From assembly GCA_903904755.1 (NCBI GenBank), contig CAIVDV010000024.1, positions 1 through 64,000 of the forward strand: DNA of 64,000 nt. The letters are read 5' to 3'. A program made the translations under genes and the position numbers. The notes below the pieces were generated by a model. The model did not search any database and was not told the origin of the DNA. It saw only the letters and a program-made list of their open reading frames with translations. This stretch comes from an uncultured Acidobacteriaceae bacterium. GTDB taxonomy: Bacteria > Acidobacteriota > Terriglobia > Terriglobales > Acidobacteriaceae. Below, piece after piece: positions 1,373 through 3,721 of the stretch (its first letter is position 1; every line of letters begins with the position of its first letter).

Positions 1373-2833
1373 ATGCCTTTGAAAACACTCCTTCTGAATC
1401 CGCCCTCGTTTGAGAACTTTGATGGTGGCGCCAGCTCCCGCTGGCCGGCTACCCGCGAGATTGAGTCTTACTGGTACCCTGTGTGGCTGGCCTACCCGGC
1501 AGGCTTGCTGGAAGGCTCCCGCCTGCTTGACGCGCCGCCTCACCACGTCAGCGCCCAGGAGACCATCGAAATCGCGAAGGGCTACGAGTTCCTGGTTCTG
1601 TTTACCTCCACCGTGGGTTGGGAGGGCGACCAGCGCCTGGCCGAAGCCATCAAGGCGGCAAATCCCTCCATCAAGGTCGCCTTTGTCGGGCCGCCGGTCA
1701 CCACCTCGCCGGAAAAGGCTCTGAACGAGTGCTCCGCCCTCGACTTCATCTGCCGCCGCGAGTTTGACTACTCTGTCGTCGAGTTCGCCCAGGGCAAGCC
1801 GCTGAGCGAGATCCTCGGCATCAGCTACAAGGCCGATGGCAAAATCATCCACAATCCCGACCGTCCCCAGGTCGAGGATCTGGACGCCATGCCGTGGGCC
1901 ACCAAGATTTACAAGCGAGACATGGACGTCACCCGGTACAACGTGCCGTTCCTGCTGCACCCCTACATCGCGCTCTACTCCACTCGCGGGTGCCCGGCGC
2001 AGTGTACTTTCTGCCTTTGGCCGCAAACGCTTTCAGGCCACGCCTGGCGCAAGCGCTCCACCGACGATGTGGCTGCCGAGCTGAAGTGGGCCAAGGAGAA
2101 CTTCCCCGAGGTGAAGGAATTCTTCTTTGACGATGACACCTTCAACATCCAGAAGGCCCGCACCATCGAGCTGTGCGAAAAGCTGAAGCCGCTGAAGCTC
2201 ACCTGGAGCTGCACCAGCCGCGTCACCACCGACCGCGAAACGCTGCAGGCCATGAAAGATGCCGGCTGCCGCCTGCTCATCGTCGGCTTTGAGTCGGGCG
2301 ACCCGCAGATACTGAAGAACATCAAGAAGGGCGCCACGGTTGAGCGTGCCCGCGCCTTTGCCAAGGACTGCAACGAAATCGGCCTGGTCATCCACGGTGA
2401 CTTTATCCTCGGCCTGCCTGGGGAAACCAAGGAATCGATCCAGAACACCATCAACTTCGCCAAGTCGCTGGATGTGGAGACCATTCAGGTTTCGATTGCC
2501 CACGCCTATCCCGGCACCGAGTTCTTTGACTTCGCCGAGAAGAACGGCTACATCACCAACGAAGAGGCCATGAGCGACGCCGGCGGCCACCAGATGGCAC
2601 ACATCGAGTACCCCGGCCTGCCCAAGGAATACGTCCTGGAGATGGTGCACAAGTTCTACGATGCCTACTACTTCCGGCCCAAGGCCGCCTTCCGCGTTAT
2701 CTGGAAGGCGATTGTCAACCGCGATGTGCCCCGCCTCTACGTCGAAGCCAAGGCCTTCCTGAAGCTGCGCGGTGAGCGCAACCAGATGGTGAAGGCTGCC
2801 AAGAAGAAGCAGGCCGCAGCCGCCCGCGCCTAG
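1373..2833 (+). CDS. hpnJ: Hopanoid biosynthesis radical SAM protein HpnJ
   Basis: The protein is 486 aa. The N-terminal 190 residues form a B12-binding-like domain (start MPLKTLLLNPPSFENFDGG). The radical SAM core carries the [4Fe-4S] ligands C207, C211 and C214 in CPAQCTFC, followed by LWPQT, which together with FFFDDDTF is characteristic of HpnJ. HpnJ is known to be needed for the cyclitol ether head group of bacteriohopanetetrol, probably by ring contraction of a glucosamine attached by HpnI and deacetylated by HpnK. The ATG at 1373 is preferred because family members begin at the KTLLLNPP strand; an in-frame ATG at 1352 would add seven residues. HpnI, HpnK and squalene-hopene cyclase are not in the window. 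Two small membrane transporters follow on the same strand. Confidence 0.9.
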   Translation: MPLKTLLLNPPSFENFDGGASSRWPATREIESYWYPVWLAYPAGLLEGSRLLDAPPHHVSAQETIEIAKGYEFLVLFTSTVGWEGDQRLAEAIKAANPSIKVAFVGPPVTTSPEKALNECSALDFICRREFDYSVVEFAQGKPLSEILGISYKADGKIIHNPDRPQVEDLDAMPWATKIYKRDMDVTRYNVPFLLHPYIALYSTRGCPAQCTFCLWPQTLSGHAWRKRSTDDVAAELKWAKENFPEVKEFFFDDDTFNIQKARTIELCEKLKPLKLTWSCTSRVTTDRETLQAMKDAGCRLLIVGFESGDPQILKNIKKGATVERARAFAKDCNEIGLVIHGDFILGLPGETKESIQNTINFAKSLDVETIQVSIAHAYPGTEFFDFAEKNGYITNEEAMSDAGGHQMAHIEYPGLPKEYVLEMVHKFYDAYYFRPKAAFRVIWKAIVNRDVPRLYVEAKAFLKLRGERNQMVKAAKKKQAAAARA

Positions 2834-2840
2834 GACAAAA

Positions 2841-2878
2841 GAAGCTGCCGCAGCGGTTACCCCCGCAGCGGCAGCTTC
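2841..2878 (+). other. Long GC-rich intercistronic hairpin
   Basis: An 11-bp perfect stem (2841-2851 with 2868-2878), extended after one A/A mismatch by four more pairs, closes on a 6-nt loop. It starts 7 bp after the hpnJ stop and ends 10 bp before the next start codon. No T-tract follows on the plus strand, so it is not a standard intrinsic terminator; it could be an mRNA-stabilising or processing element. On the other strand it is followed by TTTTGT, but no minus gene ends here. Confidence 0.5.
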
Positions 2879-2888
2879 ACCCAAGCCC

Positions 2889-3317
2889 ATGTCTCACTCC
2901 CGCCTCAAACCTGGTCAATACGCCATCCTCGGGCTGGTATCCATCAGTGCGCCGCTGGGCGATACGCTGCTTGACCGCGGGATGAGCCACATGCCGCCTA
3001 TTTCCCTGGCGCACCCATCGGCGCTCCTCGCCGCTGTCTTCACCCCGTGGGTAGTTGCCGGGATTGCGCTGCTCATTGGTTTTTTCGCCAGTTACCTGAC
3101 TGCGCTCTCCTGGGCCGACCTGACCTACGTTCTGCCCGCCACGGCTTTTGGCAACGTAATTGTTGCGCTGCTCTCGAAGTTCTGGCTGCACGAAGAGATC
3201 TCCCCCTCCCGCTGGGCCGGCATCGCGCTGATCACCGTAGGTGTTGGCTTTGTCGCGCAGGGCCCCTCACGGACGGAGCATCCGGCACCGCCGTCTTCGC
3301 CTGAGGAGGCTGGATGA
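2889..3317 (+). CDS. EmrE/ArnE-like half-size EamA transporter, first of a pair
   Basis: The protein is 142 aa with four predicted membrane helices and the conserved DMT features of a single EamA half: a helix with TYVLPATAFGNVIVALLS, then HEEISPSRWAGIALITVGV, which is the typical E-x-x-S/T-x-x-R/Q-W-x-G helix-4 signature. Half-size members such as EmrE and ArnE/ArnF work as dimers. The gene overlaps the second half-transporter by 4 bp, so the two probably form a heterodimer. The position directly after hpnJ suggests a lipid or head-group substrate, but that is inference from context. No clear Shine-Dalgarno precedes the ATG; translation may depend on the upstream hairpin or on readthrough from hpnJ. 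Confidence 0.75.
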   Translation: MSHSRLKPGQYAILGLVSISAPLGDTLLDRGMSHMPPISLAHPSALLAAVFTPWVVAGIALLIGFFASYLTALSWADLTYVLPATAFGNVIVALLSKFWLHEEISPSRWAGIALITVGVGFVAQGPSRTEHPAPPSSPEEAG

Positions 3318-3721
3318 TTGCCGGAATCCCCATGCCCGACGCGAATCACTGGGCCGAAGCTGCCATGATCGCGACAGTGGTGCTCAGCTCCACCGCGGGC
3401 GAGGTGCTGACCGCAGCCGCCATGAAGTCCATCGGCGACCTGGACGACATCCGCGCAGTCAGCGGGCTGAAGGGTGCCATCAAGGCAGTCGTCACGTGCC
3501 CGTTGTTTTTCCTCGGCGTGGGCTTCCTGGCTTTTGCCTTTTTTGCTTTGCTCTTCGCCCTCAACCATCTGCCGCTGAGCCTGGTGGCGCCGGCCTCGGC
3601 CTCGCTCACGCTGGTCACCAACGCGATCGCGGGGAAAATCTTCCTCAAGGAAAACGTTGACCGCCGCCGCTGGGTCTCAGCGATGCTGGTCGCGATGGGC
3701 GTGTACCTGCTTACACAGTAG
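3314..3721 (+). CDS. EmrE/ArnF-like half-size EamA transporter, second of a pair
   Basis: The protein is 135 aa with four predicted membrane helices. The third helix region reads LPLSLVAPASASLTLVTNA and is followed by FLKENVDRRRWVSAMLVAMGV, the EamA end signature with a charged Glu before helix four. The ATG overlaps the stop of the preceding half-transporter (ATGA), and a strong GAGGAGG ribosome site lies at 3303-3309. Coupled translation and matching size argue for an obligate heterodimer, as in the undecaprenyl-phosphate-aminoarabinose flippase ArnE/ArnF. The real substrate is not shown by the sequence. Confidence 0.75.
   Translation: MIAGIPMPDANHWAEAAMIATVVLSSTAGEVLTAAAMKSIGDLDDIRAVSGLKGAIKAVVTCPLFFLGVGFLAFAFFALLFALNHLPLSLVAPASASLTLVTNAIAGKIFLKENVDRRRWVSAMLVAMGVYLLTQ

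Follow-up and report, generated by a model that had tools for sequence, protein, structure and literature searches.

Hopanoids are geological biomarkers, and the locus described here raises the question of how those that carry a polar head group are moved across the inner membrane. According to the available part of PMC12583986, HpnI adds GlcNAc to bacteriohopanetetrol (BHT), HpnK carries out the deacetylation, and HpnJ forms the cyclitol ether. There, HpnN is described as a shuttle that brings hopanoids to the outer membrane, HpnL is a protein without an established function, and the passage of polar-headed hopanoids across the inner membrane is left unexplained. We analysed a stretch of 64,000 nucleotides from an uncultured Acidobacteriaceae bacterium, referred to as the window, which is the beginning of contig C24 in a genome assembly of 83 contigs. 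Here hpnJ is followed on the same strand by genes for two half-transporters.

The hpnJ gene (1373..2833, + strand) encodes a 486-aa B12-binding radical SAM enzyme of BHT cyclitol ether synthesis, which scored 746.5 bits with TIGR03471 and thus exceeded the equivalog cut-off of 577.6. The initial annotation had named HpnJ as the enzyme of the cyclitol ether head group; this stood, except that HpnJ carries out just the final one of three steps in head-group synthesis. Gene A (2889..3317, + strand) and gene B (3314..3721, + strand) encode EamA half-transporters of 142 and 135 aa, the first and second subunits, with PF00892 (EamA) scores of 30.6 and 30.4 bits that both exceed the gathering cut-off of 28.2 bits. 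The two genes overlap by 4 bp (3314-3317). Coordinates and cut-off scores therefore agreed with the annotated arrangement of hpnJ followed by two overlapping EamA genes. The annotated coupling held for A and B by virtue of this overlap, but hpnJ and A are not translationally coupled; they are separated by a 55-bp gap that contains a strong hairpin.

This hairpin (2841..2878, + strand) is a possible terminator or attenuator, although a run of T residues does not follow it, and the RNA fold of positions 2820-2900 had a predicted free energy of -31.9 kcal/mol (z = -4.0). At 48 of 189 loci, perfect arms of at least 9 bp were present no further than 110 nt from the stop codon of hpnJ, versus 4 of 945 shuffles, and the hairpins (that of the window and those of 47 other loci) differed in sequence from one locus to another. 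Since hairpins after hpnJ are commoner than in shuffles and differ in sequence, partial termination may occur at this position in some lineages. A gene that we named TolC-like from reading its sequence, with no family search behind the name, lies 5′ of hpnJ on the same strand (1-1272). It would encode an outer-membrane channel and is open at the contig end; relatives were found at the same place in 40 of 109 loci of the class and in 59 of 80 named loci.

We examined conservation of the hpnJ-EamA-EamA order in the class Terriglobia, using 150 evenly drawn genomes plus the window's own, each at least 70% complete. HpnJ was above the cut-off in 107 of these 151 genomes, at 109 loci, as two genomes had a second copy. 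The profile for finding the halves was seeded with A and recruited both, and A and B were assigned by gene order. Matches to A were present in 115 of the 151 genomes and were strong in 110; the five weak ones (E 9e-7 to 6e-4; G003, G012, G059, G116 and G128) were left out. The pair was located directly 3′ of hpnJ on the same strand at 100 of the 109 loci, a count that includes one genome (G116) with half of the pair followed by the contig end. Moreover, the pair was not mostly situated away from hopanoid genes: in 107 of the 110 strong-match genomes it was beside hpnJ, which was split in some cases, or beside hpnI. The exceptions were G111, in which hpnJ is at a contig end and the pair on another contig, G083, in which the pair is about 8 kb beyond hpnJ, and G141, in which the pair and hpnJ are on different contigs.

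These three genomes account for part of the nine hpnJ loci without an adjoining pair. At four others, all from family f4, hpnI followed hpnJ directly (G012, G062, G084 and G108; L246, L254, L262 and L265), and thus head-group enzymes can exist without the pair. The remaining two were the second hpnJ copies, L188 (G133:C19) and L216 (G145:C27), both above the cut-off; the stretches read there contained neither the pair nor hpnI nor hpnK. When the 80 best named hpnJ loci were considered, A was downstream within the locus at 73, and three of the seven loci without A ended less than 1 kb from hpnJ. One locus (L090) encodes an HpnJ that is 86% identical to the acidobacterial query on a contig labelled Verrucomicrobia, which is probably mislabelled or misbinned. 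The linkage was retained across at least 12 families of Acidobacteriota, and a start codon allowing the identical 4-bp overlap between A and B was present in 71 of 99 pairs of the class. From the adjacency at 100 of 109 loci and the recurrence of this overlap we conclude that the linkage between hpnJ and the pair is not due to chance and is ancient.

HpnI was above its cut-off in 105 of the 151 class genomes. Outside the window's own family the common order was hpnJ-A-B-hpnI, and some operons also contained hpnK, in the order J-K-A-B-I or J-A-B-I-K. In three genomes (G008, G130 and G140) the pair was next to hpnI with no hpnJ above the cut-off. The window's own genome encodes HpnI (333.2 bits versus a cut-off of 310) and an HpnK relative (185.7 bits versus a cut-off of 232.6; G000:C47:308-1072, L319), each on a contig other than that of the window. 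HpnK itself was above the cut-off in 6 of the 151 class genomes. Relatives scoring at least 167 bits, nearly all of them below the cut-off, were counted by eye in 90, and in six genomes such a relative was inside the operon (G019, G055, G061, G073, G077 and G053). The part of PMC5462960 available to us states that SD1 and SD3 Acidobacteria are without hpnK and that Chloracidobacterium thermophilum B, which has hpnI, hpnJ and hpnK, makes BHT cyclitol ether. The sub-threshold HpnK relatives cast doubt on the published conclusion that SD1/SD3 Acidobacteria are unable to produce cyclitol ether.

At five hpnJ loci (G098, G102, G126, G094 and G037) B and HpnI were encoded in one open frame of 526-596 codons, and a sixth fusion (G110) was identified among 12 pair loci that we read away from hpnJ. 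Large open frames in the search results had suggested many such fusions; a domain check left these six, which fall in one family and four genera. The predicted model of the fusion protein (mean pLDDT 93.4) matched GT2-type synthases. Its B half contains helices at 2-28, 50-72, 75-97 and 103-122, a fifth helix is at 146-172, and HpnI has membrane helices of its own. A topology in which the N and C termini of B are outside would fit the fusion, as the fifth helix would then put the catalytic domain of HpnI in the cytoplasm. From the operon order and the gene fusion we conclude that the tightest partner of the pair is HpnI rather than HpnJ. Of the 12 pair loci sampled elsewhere than beside hpnJ, 3 had no HpnI gene within the stretch read. 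Pair paralogues at L267, L272 and L277, which have no HpnI neighbour, are beside genes for a universal stress protein, a pyrophosphatase or a methyltransferase.

Co-occurrence with the hopanoid backbone genes bears on the cargo of the pair. HpnH and Shc were each above the cut-off in 113 of the 151 class genomes, and the window's own genome scored 742 bits for Shc and 532 bits for HpnH. A strong pair and HpnH occurred together in 106 genomes, HpnH only in 7, the pair only in 4 and neither in 34, a tally that ignores relatedness and is descriptive. The four genomes with the pair and no HpnH (G008, G088, G104 and G120) were also without Shc above the cut-off. One explanation for such genomes is that A and B are the same machine with another cargo, flipping a different HpnI-family glycolipid, for example a polyprenyl-linked or non-hopanoid one, and that the hopanoid link arises from shared enzymes. 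The genome that argues most strongly against an exclusively hopanoid cargo is G008 (96% complete), which has the pair and hpnI (L271, G008:C15) but no Shc, HpnH or HpnJ above the cut-off; a non-hopanoid use of the module is possible there. A second HpnI in many genomes, as well as pair paralogues that adjoin HpnI-family genes away from hpnJ, would also fit another cargo. The other three genomes carry the module with neither Shc nor HpnH above the cut-off; however, in many genomes shc and hpnH are neighbours, and the loss of a single contig would take both away, which could explain their absence. Given the 106 concordant genomes versus 7 and 4 discordant ones, and a usual neighbour, HpnJ, that is a dedicated head-group enzyme, we consider a different cargo unlikely.

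The predicted model of A (mean pLDDT 87.7) has four long helices plus short ones. In VIA-align it matched EmrE with a Z of 11.3 (3.5 Å, 109 residues) and Gdx-Clo with a Z of 11.2 (2.7 Å, 103 residues). Many unrelated helical proteins had Z values of 5-7 in this comparison, and only SMR, SLC35 and LicB rows reached or exceeded the scores of these unrelated proteins. Foldseek alone found nothing significant by E-value with the A model (best 0.056). On the basis of the model, A is predicted to adopt the SMR fold, which has four helices and about 100 residues.

Residue conservation and charge were tallied over 121 pairs. In A, Asp77 was invariant and Gly24, Arg108 and Trp109 were near-invariant; in B, Pro93 and Leu111 were invariant and Ser89, Arg119 and Trp120 near-invariant. 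Residue 30 of B was Asp or Glu in 118 of the 121 pairs, an acid that the alignment places four residues, or one turn, past the EmrE Glu14 column. Residue 25 of A was Asn in 59 pairs and Asp in another 57, or 116 of 121 together. The helix 3 tyrosine switch of SMRs was missing in both halves, where the aligned column mainly holds L, M or Q in A and mainly V, A or I in B. The Lys/Arg bias of B was negative in all 121 pairs and that of A was above that of B in 120; A alone was positive in 71, zero in 20 and negative in 30. As the available part of a review (PMC9574504) describes, opposite Lys/Arg bias in two subunits is the pattern of fixed antiparallel dimers, and by sequence A and B show this pattern of a fixed antiparallel heterodimer.

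These features also bear on the possibility that A and B do not transport anything and are instead partners of HpnI for membrane anchoring or assembly, holding the glycosyltransferase, the deacetylase and HpnJ together. The B-HpnI fusion and the tight operons would be natural for such a role. We consider it improbable, as the SMR fold appears to be retained in A, the two halves are biased in charge in opposite directions and have helix residues that are near-invariant, and HpnI already possesses membrane helices.

The initial annotation had named two findings that would speak against a flippase, a pair situated mostly away from hopanoid genes and closer similarity to guanidinium or drug SMR exporters; neither of them held. 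We found that the A and B family profiles preferred E. coli ArnE (30 and 37 bits, respectively), whereas EmrE, Gdx, MdtI and MdtJ scored at most 15.5 with A and 15.4 with B; of the six E. coli proteins whose profile scores were compared, ArnE was the nearest to A and B. ArnE/ArnF was among the function models that came nearest, and the ArnE model was matched by 30 of 31 B homologues. Among 54 A homologues, 51 matched phn_DUF6, a family of unknown role, and 33 matched ArnE. The window's own B matched SMR models, EbrA (26.6 bits) and Qac, weakly but slightly better than ArnE (22.6 bits), which speaks against a flippase. The curated ArnE and ArnF cut-offs (NF011625, 92; NF002816, 99) are far above the scores of A (17.0 and 15.8) and B (22.6 for ArnE), and by curated cut-offs A and B belong to neither the ArnE/F nor the drug SMR families. 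A small-molecule SMR-type exporter of drugs, guanidinium or polyamines present at this locus by happenstance would fit the weak EbrA and Qac matches and the EmrE- and Gdx-like fold of A, but the linkage across families, the missing tyrosine switch and the profile preference for ArnE make it very improbable, and linkage and profile scores led us to reject a drug or guanidinium exporter as the main reading.

A close counterpart of the pair is ArnE/ArnF, the undecaprenyl-phosphate-L-Ara4N flippase. Both systems consist of adjacent genes for two 4-helix EamA-like halves, appear to lack the central glutamate of SMRs at the aligned position, and share an operon with enzymes for an amino-sugar lipid, namely a sugar transferase and a deacylase. 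Unlike ArnE/ArnF, A and B sit among hpn genes with no arn genes, have HpnI, HpnK and HpnJ as partner enzymes, include a B that can be fused to the glycosyltransferase, and have the conserved helix 1 Asp/Glu in B. Thus, the pair would work like ArnE/F and yet is no member by cut-off or operon. With EmrE, Gdx and MdtIJ the pair shares the predicted fold of A and, as in heteromeric SMRs, paired halves with opposite charge bias, but differs in the absent tyrosine switch, the position of the helix 1 acid and the lower profile scores.

We propose, with a probability of roughly 60%, that A and B form an antiparallel ArnE/F-like heterodimer and flip hopanoids with a sugar head across the inner membrane, from its cytoplasmic leaflet to its periplasmic one. 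The likely cargo is BHT glucosamine and/or BHT cyclitol ether. From the literature, HpnI puts GlcNAc on BHT, an HpnK-type deacetylase exposes the amine and HpnJ contracts the ring, with all three enzymes presumably acting at the cytoplasmic side. As the head-group product would be made at the inner leaflet, flipping would be needed. The finished polar head would be unable to cross unaided, and A/B would carry the head across, the hopane tail remaining within the bilayer, as has been proposed for SMRs that transport lipids. The pair, the gene order and the fusion fit this flipping step. The conserved helix 1 acid of B may serve as a binding site for the amino head or for a proton, and an amine in the head group would account for acids at helix 1 positions that are neutral in E. 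coli ArnE and ArnF. The head-group flippase of the initial annotation is supported by linkage and profile scores. What we observed directly is gene linkage, the B-HpnI fusion, opposite charge bias and, in a model, the SMR fold of A; for A/B we infer transport, its direction, substrate and coupling. We counted as evidence against a flippase the four hpnJ-hpnI genomes without the pair, G008, the location of the window genome's hpnI and HpnK relative elsewhere, the hairpin between hpnJ and A, the three other genomes without Shc or HpnH (G104, G120 and G088), the 3 of 12 pair loci without HpnI, and the rank of phn_DUF6 ahead of ArnE.

A hopanoid flippase formed by A and B might stand in for HpnL. 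A search of 297 genomes of the phylum identified HpnJ above the cut-off in 45, of which 12 were outside the class, and the pair was present in 7 of these 12. Six had the order hpnJ-hpnK-A-B (G206, G195, G233, G256, G291 and G373), followed by hpnI in five, with none found in the stretch for G195, and the seventh (G232) had hpnJ-A-B-hpnI. Of the others, G176 and G391 contained hpnI, hpnJ and hpnK with an HpnL-like gene and no pair, the hpnJ locus of G315 was cut by the contig end, and G380 and G403 had hpnJ alone in the stretch read. HpnL (TIGR03476, Proteobacteria) is a membrane protein of hpnI-hpnJ-hpnK clusters, in the same part of the cluster as the pair, but belongs to an unrelated family. 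It was found in Burkholderiaceae and Methylobacterium loci, and the HpnL-like genes of G176 and G391 are weaker relatives. Outside Acidobacteriota the comparison comprised three plasmid-borne Proteobacterial hpnJ loci (L151-L153), where hpnI, hpnJ and hpnK were accompanied by HpnL or an HpnL-like gene and the pair was absent. HpnL was above the cut-off in none of the 151 class genomes, which gave 25 weak matches. Strict mutual exclusion of the pair and HpnL was a candidate rule that was weakened by sub-cut-off HpnL relatives in pair genomes such as G042, G056 and G096. HpnN, an RND transporter, moves hopanoids as A/B is proposed to, but is of a different family and acts at a different step, toward the outer membrane; none of 61 Terriglobia genomes was above its cut-off. 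We tentatively suggest, as an idea that may well be wrong, that Acidobacteriota possess a composite-hopanoid flippase of their own in the inner membrane, an ArnE/F-like heterodimer that replaces the Proteobacterial HpnL, and that in some lineages the HpnI-fused half makes it a synthase-flippase complex that would both attach the sugar head and flip it.

Our literature search by title and abstract, which left most subscription papers outside, returned no description of hopanoid operons that contain an EamA or SMR pair, and the words "transporter" and "EamA" are absent from the main text of PMC5462960. The pair is a concrete, deletable two-gene candidate for hopanoid flipping, and the B-HpnI fusion provides a single purifiable protein.
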